Positions 13,883 through 21,771 of a stretch of 64,000 bases of DNA are shown here, in pieces. The stretch spans positions 62,001 through 126,000 of the forward strand of contig WRHW01000001.1 in the NCBI GenBank assembly GCA_009783055.1. The letters run 5' to 3'. The stretch's first letter is position 1; every line of letters starts with the position of its first letter. Origin of the DNA: Holophagaceae bacterium. Its GTDB lineage: Bacteria; Acidobacteriota; Holophagae; Holophagales; Holophagaceae. A program made the position numbers and the translations under genes. The notes under the pieces are model-generated. The model saw nothing but the letters and a program-made list of their open reading frames with translations, searched no databases and had not been told where the DNA came from.

Positions 13883-16222
13883 ATGAAGCTAAGTATATTT
13901 ATTCCAGTGATTTTGGTACTGACTATCTTCCAGCCCATGTTTTGCCAATCTGCTTTTGAATTCAACCTCAATAGGGTACATGCCAACAGGATAATTTTAT
14001 TGGGAGAATGGGCTTCGCAGGCCAGAAGCAAATGGAAACAAGTCGTGGACTCAGAAGAAATAAATGACTACGGATTTGTTTTGCTCAATCGTGCAAGCTT
14101 CCAATATAAAACGTATGGGACAACCGCTGTATTTGCTCTCAGCGAAAAAAGTATAGAACCCTTTGAGAAATGGGTACACGGCTTGTACAACCTGGATGCA
14201 AAAACTAAATGGCTTGCGCTAGGTATGGATGGCCAACTGATTACCTCTGGTATTCAAATTCCTGGCTCCAAAGAATTTGAACAACTATTGAAGAAAATGG
14301 GTTATCGAACCCCGTTACAAACAGTCAGAGCGTTCCTGAGAGAAAACCCAGACCACATTGATGCCAAGACAGATTTGCTAAAGGAAGTCCGTCGCAGAGC
14401 CATGTTGAATGAACCGCTAACCTTTGATGAAGACCTAGACGTAGGGCAAGACCTTAGAAAATGGGGAGTCCTTGCTACAGAAACCAATAACGTTTTTCAA
14501 GGCTCATGGCTGGGTATTGAGATTCAATTTTTCAAACCAGAAGAAGATCAACCTGAGCGATACAGCCCTTTAATGCGCGAAGTTTTCCGAAGGAATATTG
14601 GCAAGGTTGAATCTGCCATTAGACAACAGCCCACAAACACAACTCTGTGGAATATCTGGGCATGGATGGCTAGAAGTATACCTGACCATAAATGGGATGC
14701 TTTTATTGATTCAGTTGGAGTATTTACTCCCTTTAGGAGTGCTTACTGTCCTTCTGAGGAAGTATGCGTTTGGCTTGCTTCTGAGGCACGCCTTAAGAAA
14801 GATTGGGAATCTGTAATAAAATTTGCTAGCCAGGCAAAAAGATTTGTAGTGCGCCATAACAACGAACGTTTTGTGCATTGGAGTCCCGGCGGCGGTACAG
14901 CAACCAGCGTCAATTATGTTCCAATAGAAGGCTATCCCGGTAGCTCTGCCTACGCTCCACACCTGGAGGCTCTGTTGATGCTCGGCAGAATTGATGATGC
15001 CAATGATCTTTTTGATGAAATGATTCGTCTGCAGGATGATTTCGATTTAGGCGAATTCATATCAAATTCCACCAACGTGAAACATGCAGTCAGTGCGGCT
15101 CGAATAGCAGGTATGGAAGAAATAGCAAAAATTTGGGAGAAGGGCATGCAGGTTAATAAGGTTCCCTATATTAGTACCGGTTTTTATTCTGGTGAGCCTA
15201 TCTTTGTATTAATGGGGAATTACAACGGCAATTACCATAAAGAATTCGAGGAATTGGTTGCATTGCTAGAAGCAAATATAGTGGTTTACGCTGGGCCTTC
15301 AGAAAAGAACCTCGCCACGCTTGGATGGAAAAGAGATGATGTGGAGCTATGGGCACTCATTGGAGCGGACGGCAGGCTTTTGCATCAGGATAAAGTAATA
15401 CCCGATGTAAGCACCATGAGAAGCATCCTGGCACACCACAAGGTCGAAGCCCCCTATAACTTTGGCAGTTCGTATATTGCTAAACATGGCAACACTCCCG
15501 GAATCGACTTTTATTTGATTGGCAACAACCTGCGTCAATTGTCGAGACAATCATCATCTAAGGAGGTGGTTGAAGATCTCCTTGAAGATACTGCCAGGCT
15601 GTTTAGAAGAATAATGCGGGATAATCAAGACACTTTGGCAACCCCTCATTCTGCGCCAACTGCCTGGGGAACATTAAAGCACTCCTCTTTGCAGGCCTTA
15701 TCCAAATCATATCTGATGGCTATCGAATCATTGCTGGCAAGAAAGCCATCCTCCCTGAACCTCTGGTATCAATGGCTTTTTTGGGCAGAAATTGAAGATG
15801 AAAGTCCCTCAATGGAACCCCTTTTGGATCAGATAAAATTAAGCCCACTCTCTGGGTATGAAACCATACCGCCACCTAACGCCACGTCCCGCTACTATAA
15901 TTATTGCAAAAAAACTGGCAACTGGCACCGAGTGATCGAAATGCTAAAGAGGGCATGGGAAAGGGATTTCCATGAATTCCTCTACCCTGAAGACCTTGAT
16001 ACATTGAGGAAGAGGTACCTCCCTACCGTTGGAGACAGAACGGGTATCCTTTTGATTGATGCCTATCTCAATGGCGAAAAGCCTGACGAAGCTAATAAAA
16101 TTTTTAACACTTGGATGGATTCCGGGGGGACATTTAAGGATATTTCAAAAATAGTTGCATTGGCACGAGAAAAAGACTATGAGTGGCTTGCAAGGGAGTG
16201 GGAGGAAAGGATCAGCCGCTAG
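13883..16222 (+). CDS. Exported two-module protein of unknown function
   Basis: A 779-residue exported protein; GGGAGG sits just before the ATG and a signal peptide ends around FCQS (residues 20-22). It seems built of two similar halves. Each has a domain ending in a strand-turn pattern like KWLALGMDGQLITSG (about residue 107) or ELWALIGADGRLLHQ (about 484). Each is followed by a helical region; the first has TVRAFLRENPDHIDAK. The strand-turn pattern is reminiscent of the thioredoxin-fold C-terminus, but I see no CxxC, and this is speculative. The same architecture recurs in the genes at 19313-20521 and 20491-21771, so these are paralogues. It follows rodA closely; function unknown. Confidence 0.8.
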   Translation: MKLSIFIPVILVLTIFQPMFCQSAFEFNLNRVHANRIILLGEWASQARSKWKQVVDSEEINDYGFVLLNRASFQYKTYGTTAVFALSEKSIEPFEKWVHGLYNLDAKTKWLALGMDGQLITSGIQIPGSKEFEQLLKKMGYRTPLQTVRAFLRENPDHIDAKTDLLKEVRRRAMLNEPLTFDEDLDVGQDLRKWGVLATETNNVFQGSWLGIEIQFFKPEEDQPERYSPLMREVFRRNIGKVESAIRQQPTNTTLWNIWAWMARSIPDHKWDAFIDSVGVFTPFRSAYCPSEEVCVWLASEARLKKDWESVIKFASQAKRFVVRHNNERFVHWSPGGGTATSVNYVPIEGYPGSSAYAPHLEALLMLGRIDDANDLFDEMIRLQDDFDLGEFISNSTNVKHAVSAARIAGMEEIAKIWEKGMQVNKVPYISTGFYSGEPIFVLMGNYNGNYHKEFEELVALLEANIVVYAGPSEKNLATLGWKRDDVELWALIGADGRLLHQDKVIPDVSTMRSILAHHKVEAPYNFGSSYIAKHGNTPGIDFYLIGNNLRQLSRQSSSKEVVEDLLEDTARLFRRIMRDNQDTLATPHSAPTAWGTLKHSSLQALSKSYLMAIESLLARKPSSLNLWYQWLFWAEIEDESPSMEPLLDQIKLSPLSGYETIPPPNATSRYYNYCKKTGNWHRVIEMLKRAWERDFHEFLYPEDLDTLRKRYLPTVGDRTGILLIDAYLNGEKPDEANKIFNTWMDSGGTFKDISKIVALAREKDYEWLAREWEERISR

Positions 16223-16308: not shown

Positions 16309-17022
16309 TTATCCACTATATAGCCTTCCCACCAGTGCTGGCAGTGCTGTTTCGGTGCGGAGAATTCTAGAGCCAAGGCTAACAGTCAGAAAGCCTATTT
16401 TTTCTAATGCGCTTATCTCATCAGGAATAAAACCGCCTTCTGGTCCAAGCACAAGTGTGCAAGGCTCTTGCAGATCGGTAGGGCATGGCTTGATAGCATT
16501 TGGGTGTGCGACAAGGCAAATGCTCTGGGAGACAAGTCTTGGTAATTGATTCTGCAAAAATGGAGTAAAAAATCTAGCCAATTGCAAGTCTGGCAATACT
16601 GTATCACTCGCCTGCTCTAAGCCCAAGATACGCTGGTGCAGTAAGTTCGCCTCATCTAGGCGTGGGCTTTTCCAGTATGACTTTTCTACCTTCCAAGCAT
16701 TGAATAGCACTATCCTAGCCACACCAAGGCTGGTAGCAGAGGCTATAACTCGATTAAGCACTTTTGGCCTAGGAAGTGCGACTATCAAGGTTAAGGGCAA
16801 TTTATGGGGTGGCGGTTGGTCGAGGACCACCTCCATTTCAATTTCATGTTCGTCCGAATCAGTAATAATTCCATGCCCCATCATTTCGTTAAGAAGCCCA
16901 ACCCTCAGGGTATCGCCAACCTTTGCGCGATAAATATTCCTTATGTGTTCTAACCTGCGCCCAGTCAGTCGCACTTGACAGTCTGAAATGAAGTCATCTT
17001 GAAATAATATGACTAGGTTCAT
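16309..17022 (-). CDS. rsmE: 16S rRNA m3U1498 methyltransferase RsmE
   Basis: From ATG 17022 the protein has 237 residues, normal for RsmE; a GTG 16 codons upstream (17070) is possible. The N-terminal PUA-like part contains HIRNIYRAKVGDTLRVG. The C-terminal SPOUT domain has the knot motifs LVLGPEGGFIPDE and SLGSRILRTETALPAL, which bind S-adenosylmethionine. The enzyme methylates N3 of U1498 in 16S rRNA of the assembled small subunit. It is convergent with the exported protein ending at 16222 and divergent from the small gene at 17191. A PrmA gene, often adjacent elsewhere, is not seen. Confidence 0.9.
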   Translation of the reverse strand: MNLVILFQDDFISDCQVRLTGRRLEHIRNIYRAKVGDTLRVGLLNEMMGHGIITDSDEHEIEMEVVLDQPPPHKLPLTLIVALPRPKVLNRVIASATSLGVARIVLFNAWKVEKSYWKSPRLDEANLLHQRILGLEQASDTVLPDLQLARFFTPFLQNQLPRLVSQSICLVAHPNAIKPCPTDLQEPCTLVLGPEGGFIPDEISALEKIGFLTVSLGSRILRTETALPALVGRLYSG

Positions 17023-17190
17023 CGACCGTACCACATATACATCCCCAATATTTGAATATAGCAGTTTCACTATTAGTAACCCCTCAAAGTCACAGAAGAG
17101 TTCAAATTGTAAAAAAATTGTAATTTTTTACGAAATACTTGCGAAAAAGCAAAAAATAAGCGAAAATAAAATTTATTGTTCGGAGGTATT

Positions 17191-17540: not shown

Positions 17541-17577
17541 ATGGCTAATTGTGAGCTAATCTCAAAATGAGGTCTGC

Positions 17578-19284
17578 ATGGAAGTGGTTGTTGCGAGGAC
17601 GGCTGGTTTTTGCTGGGGCGTAAGAAGGGCTATGGATGCCGTGCTAGATGCCTCTGGCAAAAAGCGAGGGCGCGTACAAACCCTTGGGCCTCTAATTCAT
17701 AACCCGCAGGCACTCACTCTACTCAACCAACGCGGGGTGAGCATTGTTGATACTCCTGATGAAGTGAGCAGTGGAACTGTTCTCGTGAGGGCGCATGGGA
17801 TTCCTATTCAGGACTTGAAAAAATTAAAGGCGAGGCAATCAGAAGGGGAAATATTTGTTATTAACGCAACCTGTCCTGAAGTTGCAAAGGTACATAGCCG
17901 TATAAAAAAATGGAGCGCGAGGGGCTATTTCACAATAATCTTAGGCACTCACGGTCATGCCGAAAGCCTGGCTCACCGCAGTTTTGCACAAGCAGGGAGT
18001 GCGATTGTCGCAAACCTATTAGAAGCAAGGGCGATACCCCCCGAACAATTAAAAAAAGTCTTCGTGGTTGCTCAGACAACATTTACTAACAAAGACTTTA
18101 ACTTGATTGTGGATGAGCTAAAGAGTTCCGCAGAAGAAATCGTAGTTGAAAATACCATCTGTGAAGACACAAGGAGACGACAGGAAGAGGCAGAACGAAT
18201 TGCAACAAATGTTGATTATGTGGTTGTTGTAGGTGGGAAAAACAGTAGCAATACCAAGCATCTCGCATTTTTGGCTCAGAAAAATAATAAACCTGTCCAG
18301 TTTGTTGAGATAGCATCCGAAATTGACCTTGGTGCTTTTAGGGGGGATGAAATTGTTGGAGTACTTGCCGGAGCATCCACTCCTACGTGGCTCGTAGATG
18401 ATGTGGTAGATGTCTTGCAACAACATGGAAGTAGACCTGCAAAACTTAGAGAGTTGTTTGAGGAACCGCTTCTTTCACCAATTTTACTCTGCTTGGGCAT
18501 TTCTGTCATGGCCATAGGTATACATACCTGTATGGGGCTTGTTAGAGACTGGACTAGTGTTTTTATCCTATTCGCTTACTCGCTTGCCATGTATCTGGCC
18601 CAACCATATCTCGACCCCTTTGGCCTTGGTTCAAAAGGACCAGCTAGAGGAAGATATTTAGAGCGTCACAGGCGATTGCTGATTTCTCTGGCTGGAATAG
18701 CCTTGCTGGTAGCCGTTGCTCTGGGGATGGCTCAGGGAAGGGGCTATACATTTGCAGTGGTAGGTGCATCTGTCCTTGGACTAAGCTATAAACTGCGAGT
18801 CCAAATTTTTCACAAGTCATACAGCCTGAGGGCAATTCCAGGCTCTAAAGATATATTAATAACACTTGCCTTGGCGATAATCGGAATAGTGTTACCAGCT
18901 TGGCAACAAGACCATTCCTGGGGCTGGCAGAGTATTGGCTCGTTGCTTTTTGCTGGAGCTCTAGTATTTGCCCGGAGCATCATCGTGAGCCTTTCCGATA
19001 TGCAAAAGGATCAGATAATGGGGCATGAAACCCTGCCTATCCTCTTAGGAAGAAATAAATCTCAATTTATGATGTATGCCATGCTAGCGTTTGCACTATG
19101 TTTCAATGCAGTGATGGCCTACCAGACAATGAACATCAAACTCTTGGTGGTGTTGACCATTTGCACTATATACCCAATTGTGTACCACTGGGTTTATCGA
19201 ATTCGCTTTTCCGCAGAACGCCCGCGCTTCGACCCCGGCGTGGAACCAGCCTTTTTCCTGGTAGGGATAATGGCACTAGTGTAA
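17578..19284 (+). CDS. ispH: IspH fused to a UbiA-like membrane domain
   Basis: A 568-residue fusion. Residues 1 to about 285 are a full IspH (HMBPP reductase) with the three Fe-S cysteines in AGFCWGV (Cys12), NATCPEVAKVH and ENTICEDTRRRQEE. LGPLIHNPQ, VRAHGIP, THGHAES, VAQTTF and AGASTPTWLV are also present. It should make IPP and DMAPP in the last MEP step. From about 300 on there are multiple hydrophobic segments and LSDMQKDQIMGHETLP, which matches the second Asp-rich motif of UbiA prenyltransferases. The first motif, normally NDxxDxxxD, is degenerate (LAQPYLDPFG). GAGGT lies four bases before the ATG. Fusion could couple precursor synthesis to prenyl transfer, but activity of the second half is uncertain. 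Confidence 0.85.
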   Translation: MEVVVARTAGFCWGVRRAMDAVLDASGKKRGRVQTLGPLIHNPQALTLLNQRGVSIVDTPDEVSSGTVLVRAHGIPIQDLKKLKARQSEGEIFVINATCPEVAKVHSRIKKWSARGYFTIILGTHGHAESLAHRSFAQAGSAIVANLLEARAIPPEQLKKVFVVAQTTFTNKDFNLIVDELKSSAEEIVVENTICEDTRRRQEEAERIATNVDYVVVVGGKNSSNTKHLAFLAQKNNKPVQFVEIASEIDLGAFRGDEIVGVLAGASTPTWLVDDVVDVLQQHGSRPAKLRELFEEPLLSPILLCLGISVMAIGIHTCMGLVRDWTSVFILFAYSLAMYLAQPYLDPFGLGSKGPARGRYLERHRRLLISLAGIALLVAVALGMAQGRGYTFAVVGASVLGLSYKLRVQIFHKSYSLRAIPGSKDILITLALAIIGIVLPAWQQDHSWGWQSIGSLLFAGALVFARSIIVSLSDMQKDQIMGHETLPILLGRNKSQFMMYAMLAFALCFNAVMAYQTMNIKLLVVLTICTIYPIVYHWVYRIRFSAERPRFDPGVEPAFFLVGIMALV

Positions 19285-19312: not shown

Positions 19313-20521
19313 TCAGTCTTTATATTCTCTACCAAACCGCTCAAATAGTTTTTTTACCTGTGGTTTGCCCTGCTCCCAATTCCTAGTTAGCTTCCAAGAA
19401 TCAAGAAGATTTTTCACCTTGCTTTCATGGTTCAAAAACAAGTGTGCCTCCAGAAGCGGTATGAATTTTACGTTTCCGGCGTTGCTGACATTGGTTTCAT
19501 AGAGTTTTCCGTTGGCAATCATACTCTCCCACCATTTTTCAAGCAGGTCTTCTATGCCCTGCCAATTATTTTCATATCTATGATTTGCTACCAAGTATTC
19601 CAGGATGCCATATGGAGGCAAATTGGATTTATCACCATAGGGCGAAACAACCAGGCCATCCAATAAGTCCCATACTTGTTGACCCTTAGAAGAAATGGCG
19701 GCTAAGAATGCCCATAATTTCCAGTAATCTTTGTTTTCTGGTTGGCTGTTGATGCCATCTGAAATAACTGGCAACAGTTCGTTTGCCAAGGCGTTCATTG
19801 TGGGGCTGTAGTCAAATAGCTTGTATTTTAGCCCATCCAAAAGATACTCAACTTCATTCCCTGGCTCCATTATCAATGGCATACCATAGGGTAGGTAGTA
19901 GTAAAAATTATTCCTGGAATAGTAGTGGACAAGCTCTCTGAACAACCTTGCAAACTCTCCCCAAATCAAAAGATCATCTTCGGAAGAGAGTGCCATCTCC
20001 ACACCTCTAGCCCGACAATCGAGCAATTTCTCCTTTGTTTTTTCAAGGGCTATATCCCGTAGGTGATGTATTAAGGTTACTTTGGCATCATATTGGTTGG
20101 GATATTCCCTAACAAAGCGTTGCAATGACCTTAGTTCTTCATTCTTCATTTCAGAAACCAATTCCTGTAATTCAGCTTTGGAAGGCAGACCTGTGCCAGA
20201 GGAAACCATTTTTAGCTCAGTATTGAATACCGCCCACTTGGGTTCATCTCCATACCATCTCTCCCGTTTCATCATCAATTCAGAAAGGTCTCTATCTAGA
20301 AATTCAGGCCTTAGTAGCTCAATATCGTCAAGCACTAAATGTAAACTTTGCCATTGCTCATAATCCAGAGAAGAATATGTGTTAACAAATATTATCTGCG
20401 GAGAGGGTAGCCATTCAAAAGCCCATGTTGATCTTGATGTCCATAATTTGGCTTCTAAGTCATCGTCCCCTTCTATGCCTGTTTTTATTTTTATTTCGAG
20501 TTTTGACCATCTTGTTGCCAA
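19313..20521 (-). CDS. Second half of a split two-module exported protein
   Basis: A 402-codon frame whose best start is TTG 20521, without a signal peptide or clear ribosome-binding site. It overlaps the end of the upstream frame (20491-21771) by 31 bases. Its sequence matches the second half of the 779-residue paralogue at 13883: KWAVFNTELKMVSSG, then SLQRFVREYPNQYDAKVTLI, then helical repeats. It lies in the -1 frame relative to the upstream frame. One extra A in the run complementary to 20501-20504 would join the two into one protein of about 820 residues. It is probably the 3' part of a frameshifted gene, or the product of recoding. Function unknown. Confidence 0.6.
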   Translation of the reverse strand: MATRWSKLEIKIKTGIEGDDDLEAKLWTSRSTWAFEWLPSPQIIFVNTYSSLDYEQWQSLHLVLDDIELLRPEFLDRDLSELMMKRERWYGDEPKWAVFNTELKMVSSGTGLPSKAELQELVSEMKNEELRSLQRFVREYPNQYDAKVTLIHHLRDIALEKTKEKLLDCRARGVEMALSSEDDLLIWGEFARLFRELVHYYSRNNFYYYLPYGMPLIMEPGNEVEYLLDGLKYKLFDYSPTMNALANELLPVISDGINSQPENKDYWKLWAFLAAISSKGQQVWDLLDGLVVSPYGDKSNLPPYGILEYLVANHRYENNWQGIEDLLEKWWESMIANGKLYETNVSNAGNVKFIPLLEAHLFLNHESKVKNLLDSWKLTRNWEQGKPQVKKLFERFGREYKD

Positions 20522-21771
20522 ATCACCCTGTCACATTTAATGGCTAATTCGGTGGCCTGTATAACAAAATCTGAGAAAAACTTAAACTTGGCCACATTTG
20601 CAATTAGGTATTCTGCATCTTCAATACGATTTGTCCTGATCAGGGCTTCCAGCAGTGGCTGAATAAAATCCTTCATCTGCGGGCTGAGAACTGCGTTATC
20701 AGGGGGAAGTTTCCAAAACGGATATAGACTATAAATTATTCCGTGGCGTTTGTTCCATAGCGAATCTGCCAATTGTTTCCAGTTATTTTGCTTAATGCAC
20801 TCCTCAATAAAAAGACTATAGGCGGCCTTGGGTGGCCAATTTATCTCATTTCCGGGGGTTGGATTAAGCATAGCAATCACTTGTGGCATAGATTGCTGAC
20901 TTCCAGTTACTCCACGCATCCATGAATATAGCTTCCATAATGATCCACTATTCGGCCACTCTTGCAATGCCAATAATACCTGGGGTAATAAACGCTTATA
21001 GACCAATTTCATCAGTGGGCTACATACTTCAACCGGAATTTGATTTACTGGTTCCATAATCTGAACCTGTCTCCATTCCCCAGAATTAAACAGATTGTCT
21101 AATTCCTGGGCGTAGGCACCCCATATTGCAAGGTCCTTACTCTCCTCCAGTTTTTTATTCCCAAAAGCAGATGTGTCAATGTTGTATTTATTAGATAATC
21201 TGCGGTATGCATATTCCTCTTCTTGATTCTGAAATAGCTCTTCGCTCGTTTTTACTTCCAGCTTCAATAATTCGGCGGTTTTAATTTCTGCCTGCTTTCG
21301 TAGTTGTCTCAATAGCAGAATTTTAGCACTCAAGTGATTTGGATTGGCTTTGATAAAATTTCTCAATGTCTCGACAGGGCTGGATATTTTTTTGGACTCT
21401 AGCCCATGTATTATTGTCTCTGCGTTTGGAAATTTGTCGCCTTGCAAAAGCATGTATCCTTGAGAATTTGCTATTGCCCATATTGAGCTTGGATTGAGCG
21501 ACAATTGTCGCTGAACAGTTCTTGCAGACTCCGAGGCAGACCCAAGTATCCTAAACTTAAGTTGAAATTCTACAATCTCAGGAGTCCGAACGAGAACCTG
21601 CAATTCTCCAATTCTGTCCTGCTCACCAAAGTAAACTAACAGTAATGAATATGGAGCTTCGGCACCTTGTAAACCCTGCTTCAAACTATTTTCTGCCCAC
21701 TTTGATTGTCCAAGCATGGGTAGGGCAAGGCTGGCTATAACTAAAAATATCCCTAAGAAACTTTGATTCAT
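20491..21771 (-). CDS. First half of a split two-module exported protein
   Basis: A 426-residue frame starting with a good signal peptide (FLGIFLVIASLALPMLGQS). Its domain order matches the first half of the exported protein at 13883: SIWAIANSQGYMLLQGDK, then SPVETLRNFIKANPNHLSAK, then a helical region. The end, AIKCDRVIWQQDGQ, lines up with the middle of that paralogue (GMEEIAKIWEKGMQ), where the paralogue continues into a second module. Here a stop comes five codons later, while the second module continues in another frame. The gene is therefore likely truncated by a frameshift or joined by programmed slippage. Function unknown. Confidence 0.65.
   Translation of the reverse strand: MNQSFLGIFLVIASLALPMLGQSKWAENSLKQGLQGAEAPYSLLLVYFGEQDRIGELQVLVRTPEIVEFQLKFRILGSASESARTVQRQLSLNPSSIWAIANSQGYMLLQGDKFPNAETIIHGLESKKISSPVETLRNFIKANPNHLSAKILLLRQLRKQAEIKTAELLKLEVKTSEELFQNQEEEYAYRRLSNKYNIDTSAFGNKKLEESKDLAIWGAYAQELDNLFNSGEWRQVQIMEPVNQIPVEVCSPLMKLVYKRLLPQVLLALQEWPNSGSLWKLYSWMRGVTGSQQSMPQVIAMLNPTPGNEINWPPKAAYSLFIEECIKQNNWKQLADSLWNKRHGIIYSLYPFWKLPPDNAVLSPQMKDFIQPLLEALIRTNRIEDAEYLIANVAKFKFFSDFVIQATELAIKCDRVIWQQDGQNSK

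Follow-up and report, generated by a model that had tools for sequence, protein, structure and literature searches.

What does a UbiA-like membrane domain with an incomplete first Asp-rich motif do when joined to IspH? The question is posed by one gene in the window, the 64,000-nucleotide stretch of a Holophagaceae bacterium genome analysed here (GCA_009783055.1, contig WRHW01000001.1). A preliminary description, made from the sequence, had read this gene as an IspH-UbiA fusion. Profile searches confirm the reading, recovering LYTB (E 2.6e-78) and UbiA (E 4.1e-8) within one 568-aa ORF, and the arrangement of an N-terminal IspH and a C-terminal UbiA-like half in a single frame is that by which Rao et al. 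2015 recognised such fusions. A chance or artefactual ORF was rejected, given the identical architecture in many genomes and phyla. The features of the locus are as follows.

17578–19284 (+), ispH-ubiA fusion ORF, 568 aa, ATG to TAA, matched by full-length homologues
17569–17572 (+), GAGG, possible ribosome-binding site 6–9 bases 5' of the fusion ATG, read from the sequence
17578–18429 (+), IspH (LytB) domain, residues 1–284, from Pfam LYTB (E 2.6e-78) and Foldseek matches
17611–17613 (+), C12, cluster cysteine 1, invariant in 43 fusions
17872–17874 (+), C99, cluster cysteine 2, invariant in 43 fusions
18160–18162 (+), C195, cluster cysteine 3, invariant in 43 fusions
18466–19281 (+), UbiA-fold membrane domain, residues 297–568, about nine predicted helices, from UbiA (E 4.1e-8), the structural model and VIA
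18601–18648 (+), degenerate first Asp motif and next loop, residues 342–357 (QPYLDPFGLGSKGPAR), from alignment
18787–18849 (+), loop between helices 4 and 5, residues 404–424, with Y404, P421 and K424, from the alignment of 134 fusions
18997–19050 (+), intact second Asp motif DMQKDQIMGHETLPILLG, residues 474–491, from the alignment of 134 fusions
16309–17070 (-), divergent RNA methyltransferase (RsmE-like), PF04452 E 1.7e-31

The IspH half exceeds the curated thresholds of both TIGR00216 (251.1 bits; cut-off 187.85) and PF02401 (LYTB; 263.4 bits against 24.5, residues 3–280). All cluster cysteines are present, as previously described: C12, C99 and C195 are invariant across 43 aligned fusions, together with H41, H127, E129, T167/T168, S223, N225 and S267, and we take these conserved His, Glu, Thr, Ser and Asn residues to be those of the active site. 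Foldseek places this half on 3dnf_B (E 3.5e-19) and on E. coli 3ke8_A with an rmsd of 1.7 over 290 columns. The window's genome (2.7 Mb, 141 contigs, 95% complete, 4.4% contamination) contains one IspH by profile search, namely the fusion, and also GcpE/IspG, the preceding pathway step; the IspH half should thus be active as an HMBPP reductase.

The membrane half matches PF01040 (UbiA) over residues 368–550 with 33.3 bits, just below the gathering score of 34.2, and the same profile matches 43/43 members of the fusion family at E<=0.01 (best 3.9e-20). AlphaFold2 models built from 43 sequences reach pLDDT 86.4 and pTM 0.75 for the whole fusion, and pLDDT 87.9 and pTM 0.87 for the UbiA half. Foldseek matches the latter to AfUbiA with DMAPP/Mg (4tq4_D, E 2.0e-5), ApUbiA and DGGGP synthase, and lower down to UBIAD1 in the HMG-CoA reductase complex (8djk, E 4.1e-3). 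Comparison by VIA gives Z 18.1 over 249 residues of 4od5, followed by soluble prenyl synthases at Z 14–15.7, a margin of about 2 Z over merely similar folds. The profile search that had been proposed as the refuting test of UbiA relatedness returned E 4e-8, with the predicted fold matching ApUbiA and AfUbiA, and by profile and predicted fold the C-terminal half belongs to the UbiA superfamily. Against the curated MenA, UbiA and DGGGP synthase equivalogs the best score is 30.8 bits, far below the 288 required.

Motif I of the window's fusion reads Q342-P-Y-L-D346-P-F-G-L350 and does not complete the NxxxDxxxD of UbiA-type prenyltransferases: N0 is Q342, D4 is kept as D346, D8 is L350, and the counterpart of NEPxR is KGPAR. 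The register is fixed by the family profile, which aligns gap-free to chlorophyll synthase LNDFYDRDIDAINEPYR with N0, D4, D8 and NEPxR equally spaced; this sub-alignment scores just -1.3 bits alone, and the argument lies in the exact spacing rather than the score. Motif II, correctly recognised beforehand, is intact (D474-MQK-D478 QIMG HETLP) and completes DxxxD, giving the window's fusion three of four metal-binding acids (D346, D474, D478). The preliminary description had also called the first motif abnormal, which holds for Q342 and L350 but not for D346, and the abnormality is common to most relatives.

The extent of this degeneracy emerges from 134 aligned fusions, comprising 104 non-identical sequences of 133 (L071 dropped) and 30 added from Desulfobacterota; one protein occurs twice (L168 = L141), so at most 133 are distinct. 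N0 is Asn in 68, Ser in 30, Thr in 19, Ala in 8 and Gln in one, the window's own, the Asn thus being replaced in 66/134. D4 is Asp in 94 and Glu in 5, and D8 is Asp in 14 and Glu in one. Acids occupy both positions in 6/134, leaving motif I incomplete in 128/134; the six, which read NxxxDxxx[DE] in five cases and HxxxDxxxD in one, all fall among the 30 Desulfobacterota loci L168–L197. Motif II is far better kept (D474 in 116, Q476 in 124, D478 in 130, G482 in 133 and T485 in 129 of 134), as is the 4-5 loop (Y404 in 132, P421 in 132, K424 in 128). As judged from this alignment, the degenerate motif I is a family trait and no peculiarity of the window's gene. Parsimony over 53 rows counts six changes at N0, six at D4 and four at D8, loss and regain being counted alike.

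These patterns bear on the possibility that the UbiA half is an active prenyltransferase of the membrane whose site is unusual; it would use DMAPP/IPP or a derived prenyl diphosphate, and IspH would feed it by proximity. Such an enzyme is compatible with the almost invariant motif II, Y404, P421 and K424, with three of four acids in the window's fusion, with the full NxxxDxxx[DE] of five relatives and the HxxxDxxxD of one more, and with the AfUbiA structure solved with DMAPP; it was also proposed, by a Rosetta-stone argument, in the available part of Rao et al. 2015 (PMC4746011). It has to contend with a motif I that is incomplete in 128/134 fusions and lacks the Asn itself in 66, with relatives devoid of any motif I, and with one of the papers on UBIAD1 (PMC9314443, PMC4374513), the accessible portions of which cite markedly lowered binding and activity when the corresponding Asn of microbial UbiAs is mutated. 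We regard it as possible, if doubtful.

That the membrane half acts on IspH-derived diphosphates in the manner of UbiA-type terpene synthases appears very unlikely. Five fusions of the Desulfobacterota type (L140, L169, L171, L172 and L174) carry a motif I of the form NxxxGxxxD as in those enzymes, which combine it with QDxxDxxxD as motif II according to the accessible part of PMC9835599. The terpene-synthase motif II is absent from the fusions, including these five, and the window's fusion has neither form.

Other Desulfobacterota fusions extend the series further. In L207, L208 and L213 the UbiA domain is recognisable (E 4e-12 to 5e-8) and motif I is missing, from which it follows that the fusion and its membrane part outlive the catalytic acids. 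In L206 and L209 both Asp motifs are missing from the C-terminal membrane domain; the family profile matches L209 at E 2.3e-7 and L206 at E 1.1, the latter not clearly related by score. The E-values for L206–L213 come from an 11-sequence set with three shuffled controls, none of which scored.

Domains of the kind seen in L206 and L209 would suit a pure membrane anchor, whereby the UbiA fold serves only to fix IspH to the membrane, perhaps close to a membrane-linked electron donor, and needs no ligand. In the IspH tree, moreover, standalone and fused IspHs interleave at weakly supported forks, so the UbiA domain seems dispensable over evolutionary time. The tree, from which 13 of 40 standalone-IspH loci that yielded no sequence by pattern were left out, would allow for one or several origins of the fusion. 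The distribution of constraint within the membrane half, however, makes a bare anchor quite improbable, because conservation peaks in the loops lining the site, and an anchor would have no need of that. Mean entropy over 49 diverse rows is 2.03 bits in the cytosolic loops, 2.23 in the membrane helices and 2.94 in the outer loops, with a permutation p of 0.0004 for the contrast favouring the cytosolic loops. These loops, counted as motif I, the 4-5 loop, motif II and the 8-9 loop with limits set manually from predicted helices, hold 35% of positions and 19 of the 30 best-conserved ones.

The UbiA half is maintained by purifying selection, dN/dS lying at 0.03–0.32 in 34/34 pairs; between the window's fusion and its nearest relative synonymous sites are saturated. 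The complete fusion persists in two members of the family whose genomes measure 1.2 Mb. Given the low dN/dS and the concentration of conserved positions in the loops over the UbiA active site, the domain probably still binds a ligand. The pairing of a conserved capping site with a damaged motif I is no harder to reconcile with a binding domain than with an enzyme.

The search for further IspH-UbiA fusions suggested in the preliminary description returned many genomes and phyla, and a kind of protein already published (Rao et al. 2015, PMC4746011). Among named records, 181 encoders were found and 80 loci kept, with both halves in one frame in 79/80, L071 being the exception. An initial scan of named genomes with the window's UbiA half alone gave no matches. 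The named relatives of the window's gene are Geothrix and other Holophagaceae (Acidobacteriota). Across the Acidobacteriota sample, 41/41 Holophagaceae genomes match over residues 3–506 or more; six sister-family genomes and four others bring the hand count to 51/396. A third family of the class Holophagae has standalone IspH in 7/7 genomes. A smaller sample contains 4/41 genomes lacking a match; the four belong to the window's genus or family, and three of them are <85% complete. Desulfobacterota contribute at least about 90 of 247 genomes matching to residue 500 or past (hand count), and further fusion loci occur in Nitrospinota, Brocadiaceae (anammox) and other Planctomycetota, Zixibacteria and unplaced MAGs. 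Within class Holophagae the UbiA half is matched at E<=1e-69 in 63/73 genomes, and each such match sits in a frame of >=570 aa; a standalone member of its subfamily was not found in these 73 genomes, unfused matches being at E 1e-6 or worse except for a contig-end fragment in one genome (G391, E 8e-13). Two genomes (G011 and G303) encode, beside the full copy, a second and shorter IspH-UbiA of 514–516 aa that lacks the last membrane helices (L045 and L046).

Gene neighbourhoods name no acceptor for a prenyl transfer, a further point against an active transferase. Judged by the ORFs of the window, the fusion gene stands alone between the divergent RsmE-like gene and a converging gene, and the divergence of the former means that the two share no operon. 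No neighbour common to fusions across clades was found in the loci compared, where ORF picking was poor in GC-rich loci. Neighbours vary by clade, with RsmE here, a DUF502-like membrane protein in Brocadiaceae, ParA/ParB-like proteins in Desulfobacterota and, in other clades, an MBL-fold protein or a TIM-barrel endonuclease-like protein, names other than RsmE being assigned by eye from sequence.

Three related proteins surround the fusion gene at 13883–16222 (+), 19313–20521 (-) and 20491–21771 (-), with pairwise identities of 18–25% (E 4e-7 to 3e-17). Two have signal-like N-termini and the large one shows faint TPR/PPR matches; the two minus-strand genes overlap by 31 bases, and neither protein has a Pfam family.

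A role of the fusion as MenA or UbiA, which complementation of menA/ubiA mutants had been proposed to address, is unlikely. A separate and far stronger UbiA (E 1e-46 to 1e-55) exists in 11/13 Holophagaceae genomes searched, the two exceptions being the window's genome, in whose assembly it was not found, and a 69%-complete genome with no UbiA match at all. With strong standalone UbiA paralogues beside it in its relatives, quinone prenylation is unlikely to be the job of the fusion, and a MenA/MqnP role is likewise disfavoured by two MqnA/MqnD-type genes in the window's genome. Congeners G002 and G003 have a strong MqnP-type UbiA whose counterpart did not turn up in the assembly of the window's genome (G000) and may lie in an assembly gap. 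The two good UbiA matches in G000 are ChlG-like near-duplicates (L002 on contig C71, L003 on C18) flanked by the same genes on separate contigs, which perhaps reflect a duplication or a MAG (4.4% contamination) that combines two strains. A fourth, weak match (L005) was discarded as a long ORF resembling a solute symporter.

Both roles first suggested for the fusion, a link to a membrane prenylation step and an anchor or regulator of IspH, are live. We tentatively rank first a reading in which a modified UbiA domain keeps IspH at the membrane, acting as tether and ligand-responsive partner, with the unusual transferase as a close rival. An active IspH, converting HMBPP to IPP/DMAPP, would be held at the inner membrane face by a domain descended from UbiA prenyltransferases. 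Its retention of fold, motif II and the cytosolic loops over the active site makes it probable that this domain continues to bind an isoprenoid diphosphate. Given the losses in motif I (Gln for Asn, Leu for the second Asp), it is most likely no standard quinone-type prenyltransferase. It may couple IspH to its own products or to product-using enzymes, and so regulate or place it. The retained D346, D474 and D478, the nearly invariant motif II and the 6/134 fusions with both motif-I acids speak against a tether and ligand-responsive partner, and the literature covered, in the parts accessible, reports no ligand or regulatory effect for any IspH-UbiA. A more specific and rather unlikely version, drawn by analogy, casts the UbiA half as a retired prenyltransferase turned built-in sensor of MEP-pathway products, which would bind a prenyl diphosphate via motif II and adjust IspH.

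Because the sole IspH found in the genome carries the domain, its role bears on the placing or control of isoprenoid supply, in many bacteria including Geothrix and its kin, anammox bacteria and sulfate reducers. The natural series from full through partial to no motif provides material for comparing tether, sensor and enzyme.

Among known systems, the closest are the 47 IspH-UbiA fusions of Desulfobacterales in Rao et al. 2015 (PMC4746011), which the available text describes as all from sulfate reducers and as having two DXXXD motifs, and for which UbiA was proposed to bring IspH to the membrane and use its products. The window's fusion shares their domain order, UbiA-like C-terminal half, separate UbiA/MenA in the host and proposed membrane binding. 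As set against that description, the fusions analysed here differ in extending to Acidobacteriota and more phyla and in a motif I that is incomplete in 128/134. The two DXXXD motifs of that description, hardly a defining trait, are not both present in the window's gene, which completes the second alone, nor in most relatives, and the published idea of an ordinary two-DXXXD prenyltransferase misfits most of the family as sampled here. Beyond that paper and one merely citing it, no literature on the fusion was found in a search mainly of openly accessible journals; the kind of fusion is known, and the same search gave no report of its occurrence outside sulfate reducers, of the tally of motif-I losses or of the series that ends in motif-less relatives. 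The IspH-RPS1 fusions in the available part of the same paper (PMC4746011) likewise join IspH to a large C-terminal extension, which there consists of S1 RNA-binding repeats and includes no membrane domain.

With the UbiA prenyltransferases ApUbiA (4od5), AfUbiA (4tq4), DGGGP synthase (7bpu) and chlorophyll synthase (9sau), the membrane half shares fold, motif II and the exact N0/D4/D8/NEPxR spacing; unlike them, it has lost N0 and D8 and is joined to IspH. UBIAD1 with HMG-CoA reductase (8djk), as described in the accessible portions of PMC9314443 and PMC4374513, is similarly a UbiA-fold protein physically coupled to an enzyme of isoprenoid-precursor supply. Its N102S variant, altered at the motif-I Asn, binds the reductase and resists geranylgeraniol-triggered release (PMC9314443, PMC4374513), and the equivalent N0 is Ser in 30/134 fusions. 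The UBIAD1 system differs in its separate proteins, mevalonate pathway and eukaryotic degradation, so the likeness is one of logic rather than shown descent. If the sensor reading is true, the fusion would correspond in logic to the pair of UBIAD1 and HMG-CoA reductase, as a bacterial version with a covalent link that is spread over several phyla.
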